From Meira nashicola (Eukaryota; Basidiomycota; Exobasidiomycetes; Exobasidiales; Brachybasidiaceae): a DNA stretch of 64,000 nt. The stretch is taken from contig BCJU01000002.1 of the NCBI GenBank assembly GCA_001600355.1, positions 1,674,001-1,738,000 on the forward strand. Direction: 5' to 3'. The first letter of the stretch is position 1. Every line of letters starts with the position of its first letter. This document shows, one piece after another, positions 3,655-20,396 of the stretch. Made by a program: the position numbers and the translations under genes. Below the pieces are notes generated by a model. It did no database searches, was not told the DNA's origin, and saw only the letters and a list, made by a program, of their open reading frames with translations.

Positions 3655-6222
3655 ATGACTTCTCCTCTCACAGAAAATGTCGATAAGCAATTATTGAACC
3701 TTTCATCACTCCCAAAAAAGGTACTACTGAAGATATTTGGGTATCTTGTACCGGAAGATCTTATTCAAGTTACTAAAAGTAGTCGTGGTTTATATAACCT
3801 TGCAACGTATCCAACAATTTGGGAAGAATTTTATTTATGCTTTTGGAAAGAGGAAAATCATGAACGAACTGAAAGTGTTATGCTTTCACGCTGGAGAGAT
3901 ACTCAAAGGATTCGTAATCTTTATAACACCGCTAAAACAGTCATGCTCAAATACCGTGATAATATAGAAGATGATGATAAAGAGATACCACCTTTCCCGC
4001 TATACTTGTCCTCTACGTCAGCATCATGCTTATTCGAAGATCTTAAACAACTAAATTTTTATAGACTGTTTTGCGAACGTATACGAATTGATCAAGCCGT
4101 CTTGCAAATCATCAAGGAAGCGTGCATAGATTATACTACTTGGCCTGCTAAGATGAACGATATTATAGAGAAATATGGAAATGAAGCAAAAGATATTCTT
4201 GTTGCTTTGATCACTACTCAAAAGAGATTTGATAAGAAAGAGGGGTCATATATTAGGTCAAATGATAATTCATCTAATAACATTCTCGGCTTTCCTTCGG
4301 CATTGCAAGTGCGTAAACCATCAACAACTAGATCAAGGAGTCATCATTTATTATCATTACGACTAAGTGAAGAGTTGCTTGCATATTTGCGAGAGGAACA
4401 AGCATTTAAGGGTTTAGAACAATTAAGATTAAAATTATGGCAAATGCAAGAAGATCAAAAAAGTTATAAACCTTCTTGGACTGAATTTAGCTCTATCAAA
4501 CAAGTACCTAATAATGATTTGCCCTTAAATATAACAACGGCTAAACAAACGGAGAATGGAGTTATCTTCTTATCTATGCTAAATGTAGGTGAGGGCTACG
4601 AAATTGCTCACGAGTTAGACATGCTCGCAGTTTCTTGTTCATTATTTTTACGAGAACAAGGTATAAAACTTACTTTAAACGGTCCACAAGAAACTGCAAG
4701 AGGAATCTATAAATTTATGTTTCTACACGGTTTTCGTTGTACGAATTCTTATACGGATAGAGTAGAGTTAAACAAGAACTTTTTGCACTTCTCATTAGAC
4801 GAATCTGGGAGAAAATGTCCTCCATTCATTTTTGCAGTCATCTTCAGTTCTCTTTCATGGAGAATTGGTTTATCTGCTTTACCTGCTTATACACCAATCG
4901 GACCAATGTTAGCAATTCACAACTCTAACAAATCATTTCAAACAGGCTCAAATAATTTTTATTGGCTTAGTATAATGGAAAAAGGTCTAATTTATCAAAC
5001 TTTTCAGATAAAGCAAAAATTTGCTCAAAGTCAATCTAACCTGTTAAGATTAAAAGCAAAAGTTTATACATGGGCACCACTGGAATGCTGTCTTGAAATG
5101 ATTTATAACATTCAGGGTAGTTGTCAACATCACTCTAAATTCGGGAGTACGTATGTCAAATCCGACACTATTCAAATTACGTTCGATAAACAAGATAGTT
5201 TATTTTATAAAAATATTCATCATCACTTTGAAAGAATTATCCTGAAGGACGATAACATCTTCAATCCTAGGGTAACATCGTACAACGTTTATGATCGAAC
5301 ACTATATTTGACTTCATCAGTTTATCCGAGCCCTAAACAACAGCAAACATCAAATTTTAGAAGCTTTCAAACCGGAAGAACATTGGCAAGTGCTGGTAGA
5401 TTTTTGCAATTATTTATACGTTTACCCAATCTTACTTTATTATTTTATTCGTTTAAATCAGCCAAAAATATCATCATCCGAAAAGGCAATATAACTGATC
5501 TGATTGAATTACGTAACTCTAAGCAAGCAATAGCAGAATTGGATTTTATTAGACCAAGTCAGATAAAGGAGAGCTTTAATTTTAATCAATATCAATACTC
5601 AGTTGGTACGACTGTCGTCCATTGGATTTCAGGATGTCCTGCGGTTATCATTCAGAGAATACGAACAAGTTCGATAACTAATCCTAGCTACGAAATCATT
5701 TGCGTAAATGGATCAATTATTCGAGTAAAACATATGGATATTCAACCTGCTGCTATTTCTTTATCAATAGGTACTTATAAAGCATACTTATCAATAAGTC
5801 AATTCGAAAATTTATTAAGAGCTAGGCAGTTGGGTAACATGTTTAGATGTGTCGCTTGTGAAAGTGACGGTAGCTGGTTACGACTAATACCGAACGCAAT
5901 CTCCTCAAATGATGTACCAGGTGAAGAGCAAACTTATCAAGGAACGTTTAGAATGGGAAGCATTTATGAAACATTTTATAATGAATATGATGAAGAAATG
6001 CTTGAACCGGCAAATATTTATAGAGCAGATAATCAAGCTTTCATTAACAATGAATATCCAAAACCTAAACAAGCACTGACTCGTGCTAACTTGATGAAAT
6101 TGCAACGTGAAACTACTGATATAAATCTCAGAAAAATCCATCAAGAAGCATCCAAATATCCAAATCGACATGTATCCCTTTCTGATCTCGTATACTCCTA
6201 TTTGCCATTCATATGTCTATAA
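3655..6222 (+). CDS. F-box protein of the FBXO21 type (F-box, SirB1-like transglutaminase fold, YccV-like)
   Basis: Probable substrate adaptor of an SCF ubiquitin ligase. Residues ~16-60 form an F-box (LPKKVLLKIFGYLVPEDL, then a Trp at the end). Residues ~300-480 resemble the transglutaminase-like/SirB1 domain: a PPFIFAVIFSSLSWRIGLSA helix followed by PIGPMLAI corresponds to the Pro-...-ARRLGL-...-PGH region of that family. Residues ~645-770 resemble the YccV/hemimethylated-DNA-binding fold (SVGTTVVHWISGCPAVI start). This order is that of animal FBXO21. The match is structural in style and divergent, and I cannot confirm the catalytic triad of the middle domain. 855 aa, no intron, AT-rich codon choice. 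Ends 55 nt before the convergent gene at 6278. Confidence 0.68.
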   Translation: MTSPLTENVDKQLLNLSSLPKKVLLKIFGYLVPEDLIQVTKSSRGLYNLATYPTIWEEFYLCFWKEENHERTESVMLSRWRDTQRIRNLYNTAKTVMLKYRDNIEDDDKEIPPFPLYLSSTSASCLFEDLKQLNFYRLFCERIRIDQAVLQIIKEACIDYTTWPAKMNDIIEKYGNEAKDILVALITTQKRFDKKEGSYIRSNDNSSNNILGFPSALQVRKPSTTRSRSHHLLSLRLSEELLAYLREEQAFKGLEQLRLKLWQMQEDQKSYKPSWTEFSSIKQVPNNDLPLNITTAKQTENGVIFLSMLNVGEGYEIAHELDMLAVSCSLFLREQGIKLTLNGPQETARGIYKFMFLHGFRCTNSYTDRVELNKNFLHFSLDESGRKCPPFIFAVIFSSLSWRIGLSALPAYTPIGPMLAIHNSNKSFQTGSNNFYWLSIMEKGLIYQTFQIKQKFAQSQSNLLRLKAKVYTWAPLECCLEMIYNIQGSCQHHSKFGSTYVKSDTIQITFDKQDSLFYKNIHHHFERIILKDDNIFNPRVTSYNVYDRTLYLTSSVYPSPKQQQTSNFRSFQTGRTLASAGRFLQLFIRLPNLTLLFYSFKSAKNIIIRKGNITDLIELRNSKQAIAELDFIRPSQIKESFNFNQYQYSVGTTVVHWISGCPAVIIQRIRTSSITNPSYEIICVNGSIIRVKHMDIQPAAISLSIGTYKAYLSISQFENLLRARQLGNMFRCVACESDGSWLRLIPNAISSNDVPGEEQTYQGTFRMGSIYETFYNEYDEEMLEPANIYRADNQAFINNEYPKPKQALTRANLMKLQRETTDINLRKIHQEASKYPNRHVSLSDLVYSYLPFICL

Positions 6223-8297: not shown

Positions 8298-10613
8298 TTA
8301 TGAGCATTGGAAAGCCTGATAACCATTTTCACCGGTAGAATTTTGACCAGTTTGATAATTGGCATTTAAAGGGTATGGACAGAGTAATCTTGTGTTAATT
8401 AATCCACCTGCATATACTTGTTGGGTAGTAGGTACTTGTGGATCATCATCAGAACCATCTCCGTTTGTTGGAACATGAGAAGGAGGAACCGCTTGTCTTA
8501 ATTGATATCTTGCTGCAACTTGCGTATTAGGCTCAATCGATTTTTCCGCCCAAGCAATGATTGCTAATGAAATATCGTATGCCGATTCAAACTTATAAGG
8601 TCGACTTCCTGCATCATTTTGAGCTGCTCCTCCAAAATTTATTGCTCCTACGCCTTGACGAGTATGTCTCATACCGTAAATCAGATAAAATTTCATAGAA
8701 TTATCAATTTCGGTAGGATCAACTTGCATAGCAGAAGCAGTAGCATTTCTTGCTTGTGTGAAATAGTTAACGGTGGACTGGGGAGAGATTGTGAGATCGT
8801 ATGTACCATGATAAAGGATCAATTTGCCTTCATTCTTGACAAATTCACTCAAATCCGTCTGAACAGCATTCACCAATCCAGGATTAGCTGCATTTCCTTT
8901 TTGTATATCATCAAGACGGATGTCTTTATATGGATTGAATAAACTCGAAGTCTTTGGCCGTTGCAAGGTGACTAATTGATACCAACCACTTGCTTTGCCA
9001 TTTGTACCTTTTAAGCTACCTGCTGAATCTGCTAATCCAGGCCAATAAGCTGGGTATACTTCTTGACCATCTACAACCGTAGCATTGAATAATTGGTAAG
9101 CAGTAGAAATTTGAAGTGGTGTTAGGCAAGTAGAAAAACTTTTACCGTAAGTCGTATTTGTTCCACACTGAAGAACATCCAATTGTGGTATACACTTTTG
9201 CGGTGCAGAGATAATACCATCAATCACACCATCTAAGCCATCACATTGTGCTGTTATAGCATCCTTAATCGGTCCCCACAATTCCAAGTCCGAAAAAAAA
9301 CCATCTCCTCGAAGAACTTTGTCGTGAACAGAGGAAGTGTGCAATTGCCCAATATTGAGCGCTGTAAAATTCACAGCAGGAGCACCTGCAACAATGCCAT
9401 TGAAGTCTTGAGGATAGACTTGAGCTGCACTAAGACCACGCGCTCCGCCCACACTGCTGCCGTAGTAGTAACGATACACCCTATCATTGTCTTTTGAGTT
9501 TCTCACACCCTGTTTTACACCGTAAAAGTAGTTGACTACGTTCTCTGCTAATAGCAAAGTAAGGTGATTTGCTCTCGATGCAAAATCTGTTAATGTCTCA
9601 TTGAAAGCACTCCCTTCCACCCAACTTGTCGATCCTACACCTGAAAAATGACCCAAATTGGTTCCTGCGACAGCAAACATGTATCTTCCCATATAATTCT
9701 TCATTGAAGGCATAGGTACAAATCCCAATTGACCACCATGTCCCATAACAGCAATACGTCCGTTCCATCCTTTACCTTGTCCAAGAATATCATCTCCACT
9801 CAAAGATTGTGTGTCGTTCGTAATTGCACGCTTTTTGTTTGCTGTTTTGGTATCTGTTGGTGGTTGAGATTGTGTTGTGATAGTTTGCGATCCTAAAGTG
9901 AAATCATAAGAAGGCTGCAAAGATGTCGCCGAGCTTGAACCTTTTGATGATTGTTTAAATTCCTTCACAATTCCATTCGCCAAGACAAACGTACCATTTT
10001 CGGTGATCGTGTATGGTGCTGTAGCGGTAGGATAATCTTTTGGTGGCGGAGCAAGTGAAATGCTTGGATCAGATTCAAGTGGAAGCCAAACTTCGCTCAA
10101 AATTGAAGTCATTGAACTTGTTGAAATCTTTGCTCCAAATCTACAAAATGCAGGTAAACCTCCAGTTGGACCATTATTCGAAGCTCGATCATTTAAACGT
10201 CCATATCCCATTTGGGATTTCAAATCTACATCAGGTCCAACATCGTGTAAGATTGAATTGATTGGCGTACCTTTTGGAATTATTCCACGAGGGTATGAAT
10301 TTGTTAATGTTTCTAGAGAAGGCATACTTCCTTCAGGATAGTACATGCTAAATGCTTTCTGAACATTCAGTTCTGCCGGATAATCGATCGAATTTGCCAA
10401 AGCTTCACATACTGATTCTGCTTGTGAACCTGCTTTGGATATTCCAACTCCATTATCTCTAAAAGGATCTAGTTTTGTATGTTTCCTTCTTGTTAAGCCG
10501 AAAGCGAGTCCAAATATCAATCCAAAGAGCAAAAGAATGGCCACCAAAGTGAGAAAGATAAAGACTCTAAGACGAGATCGACCTTTACCGGGTGCTGAGT
10601 TTTTGTTGAACAT
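8298..10613 (-). CDS. Membrane-anchored tannase/feruloyl-esterase family protein (paralog 1), CS-D-HC cysteines absent
   Basis: Tannase/feruloyl esterase B family (alpha/beta hydrolases that cleave ester bonds of gallate or hydroxycinnamate). 771 aa. Residues ~17-41 form one hydrophobic helix after a basic start (GRSRLR) and before RRKHTK, indicating a type II signal anchor with the catalytic part outside. Family hallmarks: GKGWNGRIAVMGHGGQLGF, an AGTNLGHFS segment, nucleophile motif GSSVGG (Ser387), acid in YDLTISPQS (Asp606), and RHT with His650. In the family the Ser and His are each next to a Cys (CS...HC) joined by a disulfide; here they are Ser386 and Thr651. A KKR dibasic site ends at Arg262, just before the GDDILGQGKGW block. 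Tandem with a paralog at 11101-13347. No intron. Confidence 0.83.
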   Translation of the reverse strand: MFNKNSAPGKGRSRLRVFIFLTLVAILLLFGLIFGLAFGLTRRKHTKLDPFRDNGVGISKAGSQAESVCEALANSIDYPAELNVQKAFSMYYPEGSMPSLETLTNSYPRGIIPKGTPINSILHDVGPDVDLKSQMGYGRLNDRASNNGPTGGLPAFCRFGAKISTSSMTSILSEVWLPLESDPSISLAPPPKDYPTATAPYTITENGTFVLANGIVKEFKQSSKGSSSATSLQPSYDFTLGSQTITTQSQPPTDTKTANKKRAITNDTQSLSGDDILGQGKGWNGRIAVMGHGGQLGFVPMPSMKNYMGRYMFAVAGTNLGHFSGVGSTSWVEGSAFNETLTDFASRANHLTLLLAENVVNYFYGVKQGVRNSKDNDRVYRYYYGSSVGGARGLSAAQVYPQDFNGIVAGAPAVNFTALNIGQLHTSSVHDKVLRGDGFFSDLELWGPIKDAITAQCDGLDGVIDGIISAPQKCIPQLDVLQCGTNTTYGKSFSTCLTPLQISTAYQLFNATVVDGQEVYPAYWPGLADSAGSLKGTNGKASGWYQLVTLQRPKTSSLFNPYKDIRLDDIQKGNAANPGLVNAVQTDLSEFVKNEGKLILYHGTYDLTISPQSTVNYFTQARNATASAMQVDPTEIDNSMKFYLIYGMRHTRQGVGAINFGGAAQNDAGSRPYKFESAYDISLAIIAWAEKSIEPNTQVAARYQLRQAVPPSHVPTNGDGSDDDPQVPTTQQVYAGGLINTRLLCPYPLNANYQTGQNSTGENGYQAFQCS

Positions 10614-11100
10614 GGTGAATATGTTTGTGAGTAAGTATGCCTGCGATCACCATAGGATGTCTGAAATGGAAATCATTACAAGTTGGGCACCAAATCAAGA
10701 AAAAAAGGAGGCTTGGCAATCACTCATTCGATCCTTGTATGATGCAAATTACCCCCTCACGCCTTCGGACAACTAAAAATGGTGCGCCCCTGGCTCGAGT
10801 GATAATCAGCCTTGACGCCTTCTTTTGAATGAAAAAAGGACAAACAAGGCCAATGGCGATGATGGATGTGATTGTGAAAAGATGATGATCAATTGTTCAT
10901 AACGGGCAAGGTACATATGTTTAGTAACACTATCGATAGAAGTTTGAATTAAGCGGACTTTGAACGACATATGTACATACACTAGTGTGGAAACATGTAG
11001 GTAGATAGATAAAAAAAGAAGCGGCCGACCGACCGCGTGTTTAAAAAGGGAAAAAAAGGGAATTTCATTGAAGCTAATTTTAGATCTTTTTTTTCGGCGA
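10614..11100. other. Intergenic: promoter of tannase-like gene 1 and 3' flank of gene 2
   Basis: About 490 nt between two tandem minus-strand genes. It holds short A/G runs (around 10700 and 11040-11060) and a T-rich stretch near 11090. I see no convincing gene, RNA or repeated element. Confidence 0.5.
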
Positions 11101-13347
11101 TTAATGAACACATTTAAATGCCTTGTAGCCGTTCGCACCATGCGGGTTGCCGCCTTTTTGAAAAATAGCTTTTGCAGGATAAGGGCATAATAACCTTGTA
11201 AACGTTAAACCGGCAAAATAAGCTTGTTGAGAATCTTTTATTTGTAAATCAACGTCTGGATCACCACCTTTAACATCACGAGGAGGCATAAATTGTTCTT
11301 GTAAATTATAACGAGCTGCAATTTGTTCGTTTATTTCAACACCTTTTTCAACCCATGCAATCAAAGCTAAAGTCATATCATAACTTGATTCAAATTTGAA
11401 TGGTCTACTTCCAGGTTCATTTTGAGAAACACCGCCAAAGTGATAACTTCCAACTCCACCACGTGAATGTCTCATACCATGAATTTGATAAAATTTAAAC
11501 GATTTTCCAACTTGTTCTTCACTAAGTTTTAATGCTGCTGCTGTATCCTTTTTAGCCGCATTGAAATAATCAACTGTTGATTGTGGACTAACGACGAAAT
11601 CTGCTGATCCATGATACATTACCAATTTACCACCTTTCTTGATGAATGCACTTAAATCCGTTTTATCAGCATTTACACCACCTGGATCGGCTGCTATACC
11701 TTTCTTAAGATCAGCAAGTTTTATATCTGTGAATGGATTAAACTTTGGATCTAATTTTGGTTGTTTTAAAACGACTAATTGATGCCATTGACTTCCTTTT
11801 GCGTTTGTTGGTGCTAAACTTGAAGCTGAATCTTCCAATCCAGGCCAATAAGCAGGATAAATTTGTTCACCTTCAATGATTGTTGGTTTATATAATTCAT
11901 AAACTGCTTTTATTTGATCTTGAGTTAAACAAGTTGCATTTGTTTTTCCGTATTGTGTCTTTGATCCACATAATAATTCTTTTTCCAATTCAGGTTTGCA
12001 TTTCGAAGGTTCAGAAATTACACCATCTTCAACGCCATCTAATCCGTCACATTGGCGCATAACCACATCTCGTATCGGACCCCGAAGTGCACCTCTTGTG
12101 AAGAATCCTTTCTTGCCTATTGGAGTAGTCTTGTTATGGACAGAAGCTGAATGGATCTGGGCTGAGTTGAGAGACATAAAATTGATAGCTGGAGCACCAA
12201 CCATAATACCATTAAAGTCATCAGGATAAACTTGTGCAGCTGATAAACCTCGCGCGCCACCAACACTACTTCCAAGGTAATATCTATAAACACGATTGTT
12301 CTCTTTCGCATTACGTACACCTTGTCCTTTACCATAAAATTGATTTACAGCATTTTCAGCAATTAAAAGAGTAACATGATTCGCTCTTGATCCGAAATCG
12401 AGAAGGGTTTGATCGAATTGTGATCCATTTACCCAAGAACTTACACCATTTTGAACGGAAAAGTGACCTAAATTGGTCCCTGCAACTGCAAACATATAAC
12501 GACCCATATATTGTTTCATTGAAGGCATAGGTATAAATCCCAATTGTCCACCATGTCCCATAACAGCAATACGTCCATTCCAACCTTTTCCTTGACCAAG
12601 AATATCATCACCAGATAAAGATTTATTATCACGTTTCATCATCTTTGAAGGTGTTGTTGTAGTTGCATTCTTTTTATCTTCAGGTGGTGCAGGAACATCA
12701 TTTGGTGCAGGTGGATTATAAGCATAAGGTGATGGTTTTACCTTTTTATATTTTCCTTCACGATAATAAAGTGGAGCAGTAATAAAATCACCTTTTGGAC
12801 CAATTTCATATCCAGTCGTATTTGTTGGAAAATCAGGATCAGGAATTGCTAAAGGTATCTTTAGATCAGAAGCAACAGGTAACCAAACTTCCGTTAAAAC
12901 TGAAGTTAAAGGACTTGTTGAAATTTGTAAGCCAAAACGACAAAAAGCAGGTAAAGATCCAACAGGACCGTTGAATGAAATTCTACTTGCTAATCTACCA
13001 TAACCTGCTTGAGCTTTGATATTCAAATCAAATCCAACTCCATCTAAAACTTTATCGATAGGAACTCCATCTGGAATCGTACCGTTTGGATATAATTTTG
13101 TTAACTTTTCTAAAGATAAAGTTGAACCTTCAGGAAAATATTGACTAAACGTATTATTGATCTTTAATCCTGCAGGAGCTTCAAAAGTTTCAGCTAATTG
13201 TTTGCATAACGTTTCTGCTTTATCACCCGCTGTTAAAGTTGAAACTTGAGCATGAACACCAATACGAGGATGTTTACCTGCCTTATAACCTGCGAGCCAA
13301 GTGGCAGTAAGGATAAGAAAGCCTGTAAAAGATTGCATCAGACGCAT
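11101..13347 (-). CDS. Secreted tannase/feruloyl-esterase family protein (paralog 2), CS-D-HC cysteines absent
   Basis: 748 aa, clearly homologous to the gene at 8298-10613 over almost its whole length, with whole blocks identical (for example the GDDILGQGKGWNGR block). The N-terminus differs: a hydrophobic stretch at residues ~5-20 (MRLMQSFTGFLILTATWLAG) that looks like a cleavable signal peptide, so this one is probably secreted. Nucleophile motif GSSVGG (Ser361), acid in ADFVVSPQS (Asp583), and RHS with His627. As in paralog 1 the two Cys of the family motif are absent (Ser360, Ser628). A dibasic KR ends at Arg239, at the position equivalent to the site in paralog 1. Substrate is not predictable from sequence; plant phenolic esters are the family norm. 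No intron. Confidence 0.84.
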   Translation of the reverse strand: MRLMQSFTGFLILTATWLAGYKAGKHPRIGVHAQVSTLTAGDKAETLCKQLAETFEAPAGLKINNTFSQYFPEGSTLSLEKLTKLYPNGTIPDGVPIDKVLDGVGFDLNIKAQAGYGRLASRISFNGPVGSLPAFCRFGLQISTSPLTSVLTEVWLPVASDLKIPLAIPDPDFPTNTTGYEIGPKGDFITAPLYYREGKYKKVKPSPYAYNPPAPNDVPAPPEDKKNATTTTPSKMMKRDNKSLSGDDILGQGKGWNGRIAVMGHGGQLGFIPMPSMKQYMGRYMFAVAGTNLGHFSVQNGVSSWVNGSQFDQTLLDFGSRANHVTLLIAENAVNQFYGKGQGVRNAKENNRVYRYYLGSSVGGARGLSAAQVYPDDFNGIMVGAPAINFMSLNSAQIHSASVHNKTTPIGKKGFFTRGALRGPIRDVVMRQCDGLDGVEDGVISEPSKCKPELEKELLCGSKTQYGKTNATCLTQDQIKAVYELYKPTIIEGEQIYPAYWPGLEDSASSLAPTNAKGSQWHQLVVLKQPKLDPKFNPFTDIKLADLKKGIAADPGGVNADKTDLSAFIKKGGKLVMYHGSADFVVSPQSTVDYFNAAKKDTAAALKLSEEQVGKSFKFYQIHGMRHSRGGVGSYHFGGVSQNEPGSRPFKFESSYDMTLALIAWVEKGVEINEQIAARYNLQEQFMPPRDVKGGDPDVDLQIKDSQQAYFAGLTFTRLLCPYPAKAIFQKGGNPHGANGYKAFKCVH

Positions 13348-14790: not shown

Positions 14791-15220
14791 ACCTTAAGTC
14801 AACATCAGCTTACTACTTATGGTTGTTGTGACGTTAAAAAGTCATCGATAATACTTTATCAACTAAACGTTCTAAATTGATAGGAGTTAGGAGAAGAATG
14901 ACATAGCAAGAAGATCAAAGAATGTATTCATGAATATGTTACATTAAGCAAATTTGTTAGAAGAGGCGCTGCGCTTATCAGACGATATGATCAGATTGTT
15001 GCTAAATTTGGCTGATTTGATATTATTCTCAACCTTTGCTTCTTGAACGAGAGTGGAACAACTTGTTTACTAACACATCACGCGCTTAGGCTTCTTGACG
15101 TTTAGGTGTACGCGTAATGTGGACGCACGTCCCATTTGGGTGCACAGTATGTATCAACATTTTACAAGATCTCAATCTTCCTTCTACCCTCATGCACATA
15201 TTTGCAAAAGTACAGACAAA
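14791..15220. other. Intergenic: 5' flank of RPN12
   Basis: About 430 nt between the gag-like relic and RPN12. It holds an ACGCGT palindrome inside TACGCGTA (15109-15116). A frame in phase with RPN12 is open from 15095 but has no ATG before 15221 that looks like a natural start of this family. Nothing else is evident. Confidence 0.5.
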
Positions 15221-16012
15221 ATGAGCAATATCACAAGTACTCACTCTGCTATACTGAAAGCATACTCTTCAGGATCTTCAAACTTGAAAGGACAATTGAC
15301 AAAAGCAAAGATTGAATTAACACAAGCAGGATTACTCGTACCTTCTCCATCCGAAGCAGCAGCTCATCCAAAAGAATTTTCCTTGGCTCGTGATATTCTA
15401 GAGATTGGAGCATTTGATAGTCTAAAACATAAAGATGTTGAAAGTTTTGATCGATATGTTGGCCTATTAAAGGTATTTTATCAAGATTGCGGTTCAAGTT
15501 TACCTTCCTCAAAAAATGAAGAAGCTTTGTTGGGTTTATCATTGTTGCGTTTGCTTTCATCCAATTCGATCTCACAATTCCACACAACACTTGAAAACTT
15601 ACCACCAAATTTGGTCGCCAATTCACCTTACCTCCAACATCCTGTAAATTTGGAAAGATGGCTGATGGAAGGAAGTTATTCAAAAGTATGGAGAGCACGC
15701 AGCGAAGTACCGAGAGAAGAGTACAAGTTGTTTGTTGAGCAATTGATGGGAACTATTCGCAGAGAGATTGCTTCTTGTGAGGAAAAGGCATATGACAGTT
15801 TGCCATTAAGTGATGCAGCCACTTTACTCTTCTTTAACAATATGGAAGAAGTATCCGCATTTGCCGCCGAAAGAGGATGGCAAATCAATCCAACAACTCA
15901 AACTGTTCATTTCACAAACAAAGCCGAACAAGCTGCCAAAGATGCCATTCCCAAGAAAGCCACCATCACATCTAATCTTCAATTTGCCAAAGAACTTGAA
16001 AGCATTGTATAA
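15221..16012 (+). CDS. RPN12: 26S proteasome regulatory subunit Rpn12 (PSMD8)
   Basis: Lid subunit of the 19S regulatory particle, needed for proteasome assembly and turnover of ubiquitinated proteins. 263 aa from the ATG at 15221, close to the ~270 aa of yeast Rpn12. Family features are the N-terminal helical repeats (KAKIELTQAGLLVPS, then ARDILEIGAFDSLKHKD), a central RYVGLLKVFYQD segment, the LMEGSYSKVW block and a PCI/winged-helix end (LPLSDAATLLFFNNMEEVSAFAAERGW). The ATG at 15221 is chosen over upstream in-frame Mets because MSNITSTHSAILKAYSSG aligns with the usual start of the family. No intron. Tail-to-tail with the PPR gene. Confidence 0.92.
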   Translation: MSNITSTHSAILKAYSSGSSNLKGQLTKAKIELTQAGLLVPSPSEAAAHPKEFSLARDILEIGAFDSLKHKDVESFDRYVGLLKVFYQDCGSSLPSSKNEEALLGLSLLRLLSSNSISQFHTTLENLPPNLVANSPYLQHPVNLERWLMEGSYSKVWRARSEVPREEYKLFVEQLMGTIRREIASCEEKAYDSLPLSDAATLLFFNNMEEVSAFAAERGWQINPTTQTVHFTNKAEQAAKDAIPKKATITSNLQFAKELESIV

Positions 16013-17747: not shown

Positions 17748-20396
17748 ATGCCGATGCTTCTTGATATTACCAGGAAGCTATTCGCTCGATCCGATCGTGT
17801 AAAAGCTGTCGATTTCCATCCAACAGAACCATGGCTTTTGGCAGGCCTATATACAGGTTCAGTTAACATCTGGAATTATGAAACAGGAGCATTGATCAAA
17901 ACATTCGAGGTGGCCGAAGTGCCTGTTCGATGTGTAAAGTTCATTGCACGTAAGAATTGGTTCGTTGCTGGAAGTGATGATTTTCAATTAAGATGTTTCA
18001 ACTACAACACTCATGAAAAGGTCATTGCATTCGAAGCTCATCCTGATTATATTCGATGCATCGCAGTTCACCCCACAGGCAGCTTCATCTTGACGGGAAG
18101 TGATGATATGACAATCAAAATGTGGGATTGGGATAAGAATTGGAGACATTTGCAAACTTTCGAAGGTCATACTCACTTTGTTATGAATTTAGCATTCAAT
18201 CCAAAAGATTCAAATTCATTCGCTTCTGCTTGTTTGGATCGTACAGTCAAGATCTGGACGCCTGGATCTGCAACGGCCAACTTCACCCTCGAAGCACATG
18301 ACAAAGGTGTCAATTATGTCGAATACTATCATGGAGGTGAAAAGCCATATCTTGTCACAACAGGTGATGATCGCACAGTCAAAATTTGGGATTACATTTC
18401 AAAGTCTTGCATTCAAACTTTAGATGGACATTTGTCCAACGTTTCCTTTGCTTGCTTCCACCCTTCTTTGCCCCTCATCATCTCTGGTTCTGAAGATGGT
18501 ACCGTCAAACTATGGCACAGCAACACATATCGCCTCGAAACAACACTTGATTACGGCCTCGAACGTGCTTGGTGTGTTGCTTACAGAAAGACAGGCAATG
18601 ACATTGCTATCGGTTACGATGATGGTGTTGTGGTTGTTAAACTTGGCAAGGAAGAACCAAGTGTGAGCATGGATACAAGTGGTAAAGTCGTTTGGGCTAA
18701 AGGTGCAGAAGTTCTTAGTGCTAATCTAGGTGCATCCGAAACTGATGCTTTAGTGGACGGACAACGGATCGCAGCTGGATCTCGCGAAATGGGGTCTACC
18801 GAAGTTCACGCGCAGTCTCTTCAACACTCTCCCAATGGCCGATTCGTGACCGTTTGTGGTGATGGAGAATACATTATCTATACCGCTCTCGCATGGCGCA
18901 ACAAAGCATTCGGTACAGGTTTTGCATTTGCTTGGGCAACTGATAGTAACACATACGCTGTAAAAGAAAGCAACAGCCTTGTAAAAGTGTTCCGTAACTT
19001 CCGTGAGCGTGCCAACTTGATCAATATCAATTATGCCGTTGAGGATGTCAAAGGTGGTGCTTTGCTTGGTGTTACAGGCTCAGGATTTGTATGCTTCTAT
19101 GACTGGGATTCAGGAGCTTTGGTCCGTAGAATTGAAGTTGAAGCAAAGGATGTTTCTTGGTCATCGACGGGTGAATTGGTCGCTATTACCAGTGGAGAGT
19201 CGTTCTATATTTTACGATTTGATCGTCAAGCTTATCAAAATGGTCTGGAATCTGGTGAATACGTCGAAGATGAAGGTGTAGAATCCGCATTCGATGTGGT
19301 GACAGAGATCAGTGAAGTAGTAAAAACCGCTAAATGGACTGGAGAATGCTTCATCTACACAAATGCTCAGAATAGAATCCAATACCTAGTCGGAGAACAA
19401 ACACATACAGTCAACCATACAGATACCGAACTATACCTGTTGGGCTACCTACCGTCACACGGTCGTGTCTATCTAGTAGACAAGGATGTTTCGATATATA
19501 GCTTTGCGCTCAGTCTAGCGGTTGTCGAATATCAAACGGCAATTTTACGTCAGGATTATGAGGGCGCAAGTGAAATTCTCAAGACAGTACCAGCTGATCA
19601 ACGAAACCGCATAGCAAGATTCTTGGAATCTCAAGATTTGAAAAAGTTGGCTTTAGAGGTATCTACAGATCCTGATCACAAATTCGATTTGGCCGTTTCG
19701 CTAGACGATTTTGATACAGCACTAGAAATTGCACAAAATGGACCCGAAGCAGGCAGTGAATTACGTTGGAGAACGATTGGTGACAAAGCGCTACAGCAAT
19801 GGAATTTACAACTTGCACTTGAATGTTTCGAAAAGGCATCTGATCTACAAACATTATTCTTGATTGCATCTTCTACAAGTGATCGAGGTTTGCTAGAACG
19901 TATCGCAGAGATGGCATCAGAGAAAAAGATTGTTAATTTGGCAATGAATTGTTACTTGCAATTGGGCGATACAGCCCGAAGTATTGATGTACTTGTTCAA
20001 TCAGGTCGCTTACCCGAAGCCGCTTTATTTGCAAGAAGTTATGCACCTTCACGTGTGCCAGAAATTGTAGAATTGTGGAAAGCAAATTTGAAAGAATCAA
20101 AGAGAAGCAAGCAAGATGCAATTGCTTCTAGTTTGGGTGATCCAAATTCCGATCCAAACGCATTCGAAGAAGGATGGAAAGAAGCTTTGAAGCGTGAAAG
20201 TGAGCTTGCTTCTAAAGGACCAACAGCTCGAGCAAAATTGAACGAAGTACCCAAAGTTGTTGCACCCACTCTCACTAATGGGGCAAATACTACAACAACA
20301 ACTTCCGGTCTAAATGGAAACGGAACAGAAGCATCAGCACAGGATCAATTGACGGAATCAAGCATCGTTGCCGAAGCCACAAGCAATGGCGTTTGA
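17748..20396 (+). CDS. SEC27: Coatomer beta' subunit (beta'-COP, Sec27)
   Basis: Subunit of the COPI coat that forms Golgi-to-ER vesicles; the beta' propellers bind dilysine retrieval signals. 882 aa. The N-terminus (LDITRKLFARSDRVKAVDFHP) and the run of WD40 repeats over residues ~10-300 match beta'-COP, with repeat ends such as TIKMWDWD, TVKIWTPG, TVKIWDYI and TVKLWHSN. A second propeller (~residues 300-590) is followed by an alpha-solenoid (FALSLAVVEYQTAILRQD onward) that pairs with alpha-COP. The last ~60 residues are low-complexity. No intron. Convergent with VAC14. Confidence 0.95.
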   Translation: MPMLLDITRKLFARSDRVKAVDFHPTEPWLLAGLYTGSVNIWNYETGALIKTFEVAEVPVRCVKFIARKNWFVAGSDDFQLRCFNYNTHEKVIAFEAHPDYIRCIAVHPTGSFILTGSDDMTIKMWDWDKNWRHLQTFEGHTHFVMNLAFNPKDSNSFASACLDRTVKIWTPGSATANFTLEAHDKGVNYVEYYHGGEKPYLVTTGDDRTVKIWDYISKSCIQTLDGHLSNVSFACFHPSLPLIISGSEDGTVKLWHSNTYRLETTLDYGLERAWCVAYRKTGNDIAIGYDDGVVVVKLGKEEPSVSMDTSGKVVWAKGAEVLSANLGASETDALVDGQRIAAGSREMGSTEVHAQSLQHSPNGRFVTVCGDGEYIIYTALAWRNKAFGTGFAFAWATDSNTYAVKESNSLVKVFRNFRERANLININYAVEDVKGGALLGVTGSGFVCFYDWDSGALVRRIEVEAKDVSWSSTGELVAITSGESFYILRFDRQAYQNGLESGEYVEDEGVESAFDVVTEISEVVKTAKWTGECFIYTNAQNRIQYLVGEQTHTVNHTDTELYLLGYLPSHGRVYLVDKDVSIYSFALSLAVVEYQTAILRQDYEGASEILKTVPADQRNRIARFLESQDLKKLALEVSTDPDHKFDLAVSLDDFDTALEIAQNGPEAGSELRWRTIGDKALQQWNLQLALECFEKASDLQTLFLIASSTSDRGLLERIAEMASEKKIVNLAMNCYLQLGDTARSIDVLVQSGRLPEAALFARSYAPSRVPEIVELWKANLKESKRSKQDAIASSLGDPNSDPNAFEEGWKEALKRESELASKGPTARAKLNEVPKVVAPTLTNGANTTTTTSGLNGNGTEASAQDQLTESSIVAEATSNGV

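Follow-up and report, generated by a model that had tools for sequence, protein, structure and literature searches.

Members of the tannase/feruloyl esterase family (PF07519) carry a Ser-Asp-His triad and, in the CS-D-HC subtype, a Cys before the Ser and another after the His. In feruloyl esterase B of Aspergillus oryzae (AoFaeB) these are Cys202 and Cys458, bridged beside Ser203 and His457 (PMC6986724; this and the other papers are cited from excerpts). According to Palm and co-workers, the bridge is more than 80% conserved in the family block (PMC6461665), and MHETase of Ideonella sakaiensis has five bridges and ten highly conserved Cys (PMC7568301). Here we describe two adjacent PF07519 genes on the minus strand of a 64-kb stretch (G000:C2:1674001-1738000, hereafter the window) of the 17.9-Mb genome of the fungus Meira nashicola: paralog 1 (771 aa, 8298..10613) and paralog 2 (748 aa, 11101..13347). 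Where AoFaeB (structure 3wmt) has Cys202 and Cys458, the encoded proteins carry Ser and either Ser or Thr.

AoFaeB and the A. oryzae esterase 6g21 are among the closest known systems; the Aspergillus niger tannase (7k4o) is more distant, and for the window proteins this kinship need not mean tannase activity. In the HSL-family esterase PMGL2, the change of a Cys pair near the nucleophile to Thr/Ser was neutral, the Cys being unbonded there (PMC6986724). Two lidless MHETase variants lacking the active-site bridge could be expressed, with MHET turnover of 0.10 and 0.06 per second; lidless MHETase itself reached 0.05 per second, and all of these rates lay far below that of the wild type (PMC7568301). 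No report of natural loss of the PF07519 active-site bridge was found in the literature searched, which says nothing beyond that body of papers.

A catalytic triad without its flanking cysteines

Both genes were recognized as open reading frames matching the Pfam Tannase profile (181.3 bits for paralog 1 and 221 for paralog 2; cut-off 29.8) over positions 29-481 and 29-488 of 490, respectively. Their catalytic domain aligned with solved feruloyl esterases (phmmer against solved structures) and, as modelled (m07cb35ef1d07 for paralog 2), the overall fold resembles that of solved PF07519 members. At 522 residues, the AoFaeB chain of 3wmt is shorter than the two proteins by 226-249 residues. Their long-form scaffold comprises about 200 residues in nine stretches absent from a short-form relative; most of it is present in Cys-bearing members too.

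In the phmmer alignments, GSSVGG of both paralogs stood opposite GCSTGG of AoFaeB, and MRHT (paralog 1) and MRHS (paralog 2) opposite MAHC, with gap-free motif neighbourhoods. In paralog 1, the first disulfide Cys position is occupied by Ser386 (codon AGC, 9456..9458) and the second by Thr651 (ACT, 8661..8663), next to the putative nucleophile Ser387 (AGT, 9453..9455) and triad base His650 (8664..8666), with Asp606 (8796..8798) as the likely triad acid. The corresponding residues of paralog 2 are Ser360 (AGT, 12268..12270) and Ser628 (TCA, 11464..11466) at the Cys positions, and Ser361 (AGT, 12265..12267), Asp583 (11599..11601) and His627 (11467..11469) as the putative triad (all on the minus strand). 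A sequence-only reading of the locus had reported that both paralogs lack the paired Cys while keeping Asp606/Asp583 and the rest of the triad; residues, codons and the alignment to 3wmt agree with it. Both proteins therefore have the Ser-Asp-His triad of PF07519 and lack both Cys of the CS-D-HC subtype.

The same reading suggested that these enzymes are disulfide-free, a wording that the data do not support, as eight other conserved Cys are retained. The complete list is 69, 157, 457, 474, 483, 496, 745 and 770 in paralog 1, and 48, 136, 433, 450, 460, 473, 721 and 746 in paralog 2. All of them sit in eight other conserved Cys columns, and the triad-side pair alone is gone. Since the eight Cys of paralog 2 account for exactly those columns, replacement of the lost pair by another or shifted Cys was ruled out. 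By analogy with the family and with MHETase, the eight would form four bridges. Loss of all disulfides through a move to the cytosol was also ruled out, as the eight Cys remain.

Paired losses in a fungal subfamily

Based on a protein search that scored 7993 candidates (best 120 of 233 listed), we aligned 125 sequences, namely the 120 matches and five from the host genome, including one duplicate (P0012, identical to the L004 frame) and the chimeric P0004. CS-D-HC was found in 102 of them and neither Cys in 19; one (P0016) was truncated after the Ser, and three polypore models (two of Trametes, one of Daedaleopsis) kept CS but had Trp or Leu after the His. Two of these three, with extra residues after the His, may be splice-model errors. 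Among the matches listed, the nearest named relatives of both proteins came from Meira, Exobasidium, Ceraceosorus and further fungi of what we take to be the class Exobasidiomycetes. A second search with the Ceraceosorus protein as query (7992 scored, all 29 listed) added Tilletia, Jaminaea, Thecaphora, Pseudozyma and further relatives, which had CS and HC where both sides could be read (the His side of P0125 was unread in this tally); it also returned P0132, with Val-Ser...His-Gly. In a short-form control search with a query from the same genome (best 120 of 2360 listed), 119 of the 120 matches were CS-D-HC and one (P0205) was Tyr-Ser...His-Cys. Measured against these 119 and the 102 CS-D-HC sequences among the 125 aligned first, absence of the pair goes beyond chance.

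The tree was built from 47 rows and 683 columns with the five motif columns taken out, using 10 chosen rows as outgroup; P0004, P0125 (a fused model) and P0012 were left out, and of P0126 the first 760 residues were used. A long-form fungal subfamily of 37 rows separated from the chosen outgroup (support 100/99). Within it, 18 rows had both Cys, 18 had neither, P0016 ended before the His, and none was half-lost, in line with the earlier proposal that both partners went together. The 17 rows of the Ser/Thr type formed a single clade (100/100), so that Ser-Ser and His-Ser/Thr do co-occur in a clade, as the sequence-only reading had supposed. The Ceraceosorus protein (Ala...Val) joined Tilletiaria and Tilletia in a set of eight rows (86/96), where its precise position was weakly supported, and P0132 grouped with Cys-bearing proteins of Thecaphora and Pseudozyma (100/98). 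On this tree, each Cys column required a minimum of three changes. A single loss for all Cys-free fungal rows was rejected by the approximately unbiased (AU) test (p 0.009), whereas a loss shared by the 17 rows and Ceraceosorus was compatible with the data (p 0.293). The pair was therefore lost at least twice, and probably three times, in the long-form fungal subfamily.

Absence of the pair is not unique to fungi. In a bacterial survey of 53 loci (L009-L061), 46 matches gave 31 distinct frames, an unrepresentative sample from two phyla, of which 10 had both Cys, 20 neither and one a single Cys. The Cys-free bacterial proteins (around an Opitutaceae record, L009 and L033-L054; also L010, L025 and P0134, a match of the Ceraceosorus-query search with Leu-Ser...His-Gly) resemble the fungal clade in keeping the triad without the pair. 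The idea that the triad-only state is peculiar to this clade, as the earlier reading implied, is thereby rejected; pair absence is not new for the family, and the figure of more than 80% fits a minority lacking the bridge. Once four frames cut, gapped or aberrant at the motif (L012, L019, L037 and L045) were set aside, 16 Cys-free bacterial frames were fully readable, and 13 of them retained one or none of the eight other Cys, in contrast to the fungal clade, which retains all eight. What is new is the selective absence of the pair in a fungal subfamily that keeps its other Cys.

The L033-L054 group mostly showed GxSTGGQQ and almost no conserved Cys; the residue before the Ser varied (G, S, A, H, K or R), and 8 of 13 readable frames had Gly following the His. 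Two of the 10 both-Cys bacterial frames, L030 and L031 (genome G041), kept the pair and the eight others without the triad residues: a His aligned at the nucleophile Ser, and the catalytic His was absent. They are perhaps non-catalytic proteins, a mirror image of the fungal case.

An unplanned, exploratory scan covered 99 columns that do not vary among the 18 Cys-bearing long-form rows. Three of these columns were altered in each of the three Cys-free lineages, namely both Cys columns and column 618 (Lys618 of paralog 2; 11494..11496 on the minus strand, by arithmetic). Column 618 was Arg in 18 of 18 Cys-bearing rows; it was Lys in P0132 and wherever a row of the clade was filled (16 of 16), and Leu in the Ceraceosorus protein. 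From the per-lineage break counts, chance alone would give about 0.01 shared columns, differences in mutability being ignored. The short-form control had Arg throughout, in the query, in all 119 rows with both Cys and in the row with a single Cys. Several observations speak against a tight link with the Cys pair: in the bacterial alignment, 14 of the 22 rows without the Cys (counting P0001 and P0134) had Arg, 15 of the 102 Cys-bearing rows of the first alignment lacked it and, in the model, column 618 begins the strand ahead of the His loop, so that it may not touch the bridge.

Termini, gene cluster and neighbourhood

Paralog 1 is hydrophobic from residue 17, with a helix at 14-37 in the model, which may represent a type II-like anchor. 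Such an anchor appears in paralog 1 and P0006, and the other copies examined differ; this suggests that one copy acts at the cell surface. The hydrophobic N-terminus of paralog 2, judged by eye, is a probable secretion signal, with a peak hydropathy of only 1.13. Paralog 2 also has a conserved stretch around C433-D434, D437-G438 and D441-G442, which may hold the ligands of a structural calcium site.

A six-frame search of the host genome turned up no fewer than seven PF07519 genes, comprising both paralogs, a third cluster member and four elsewhere. The four outside the cluster are CS-D-HC, and the third cluster member is Thr-Ser...His-Ser. The latter (L062:3336-5441, minus strand) lies to the left of the window, about 3.6 kb away at its nearer end, and contains one in-frame stop, at codon 95; its relatives P0009 and P0010 are models of 696 and 692 aa. 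The gene seems to have been broken recently in this genome, unless the stop is a sequencing error.

The cluster neighbours are ordinary eukaryotic genes. Profile scans identified genes for an F-box protein (window 3655-6222), a CSN8/PSMD8/eIF3K-type protein (15095-16012) and a coatomer COPA/B-like protein (17748-20396); no further esterase or phenolic-metabolism domain was found among the 18 window frames scanned. The Meira miltonrushii model P0004 resembles paralog 2 at its start and paralog 1 at its end, and is either a fused model or a true fusion of neighbouring genes. P0012, filed under the fern Adiantum nelumboides, is identical to the L004 frame of the host genome; P0136, filed under the same fern, matches another frame with 100% identity over 80% of that frame. 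The fern assembly therefore probably contains DNA of this fungus or a very close one.

Dispensability, adaptation or decay

We lean towards the reading that both proteins are serine esterases of the tannase/feruloyl esterase fold and most likely still active. Paralog 1 would probably be anchored in the membrane, and paralog 2 is probably a secreted protein. A pair of small residues would have taken the place of the bridge, the covalent staple that joins the nucleophile loop to the histidine loop. The long-form scaffold would hold both loops via packing and hydrogen bonds, making the staple dispensable. Once one Cys was lost, its partner would be a free thiol beside the catalytic site and would be lost as well. 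Arg618 might conceivably once have belonged to the same structural unit as the pair.

Several points weigh against this reading. The bridge is said, at second hand, to be crucial for AoFaeB activity (PMC8861512, PMC6769594). Removal of Cys224-Cys529 from full-length MHETase cost soluble protein, three such variants forming inclusion bodies or not being expressed (PMC7568301). The link between scaffold and staple is a correlation, and a test on independent pairs has two or three pairs, too few for significance.

Selection could instead have favoured loss of the staple: the His loop would become more mobile, a new substrate accessible, or the enzyme insensitive to the reductants and quinones of phenolic-rich plant surfaces, plants being where these fungi live. 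Repetition of the paired loss within one fungal subfamily, the three clustered copies with differing N-termini and the coupled change at column 618 all favour such adaptation, but the replacements are chemically diverse (S/S, T/S, A/V and V/G) and resemble tolerance rather than a specific new interaction; we regard it as rather unlikely. Still less likely is that the Cys-free branch consists of inactive or decaying esterase-like proteins. Loss of function stays a rival because of the reports on AoFaeB and full-length MHETase, and the in-frame stop of the third cluster copy points the same way. On the other hand, the triad is complete in all 18 Cys-free fungal tree rows that cover its three residues, the frames of the clade are open over 458-799 residues with about 50-84% identity to paralog 2, and the other Cys are retained. 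An artefact of gene models, sequencing or alignment is scarcely credible: the three polypore models show that odd models occur, but the window frames are uninterrupted, the direct sequence and codons refute an artefact there, and the Cys-free state is shared, in gap-free surroundings, by sequences of ncbi, jgi and lgn origin.

Beyond the favoured reading of active, staple-free esterases, we tentatively put forward a more daring proposal, doubtful as it is: in a long-form feruloyl-esterase subfamily of smut-related fungi, the active-site disulfide may be a removable unit, deleted pairwise at least twice together with a change of column 618 from Arg to Lys or Leu while the other Cys stayed intact. 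This would be a natural answer to the failure of staple removal in full-length MHETase, one in which loop dynamics would probably be altered and the enzyme insensitive to redox conditions.

The staple beside the triad is a signature of the family, and a fungal subfamily has dropped only that bridge. Set beside close sisters that have the bridge, such as the Parajaminaea protein P0019, its members form matched pairs in which the role of the bridge, and whatever makes up for its loss, can be studied. For annotation of PF07519 enzymes, caution is advised against demanding CS-D-HC.
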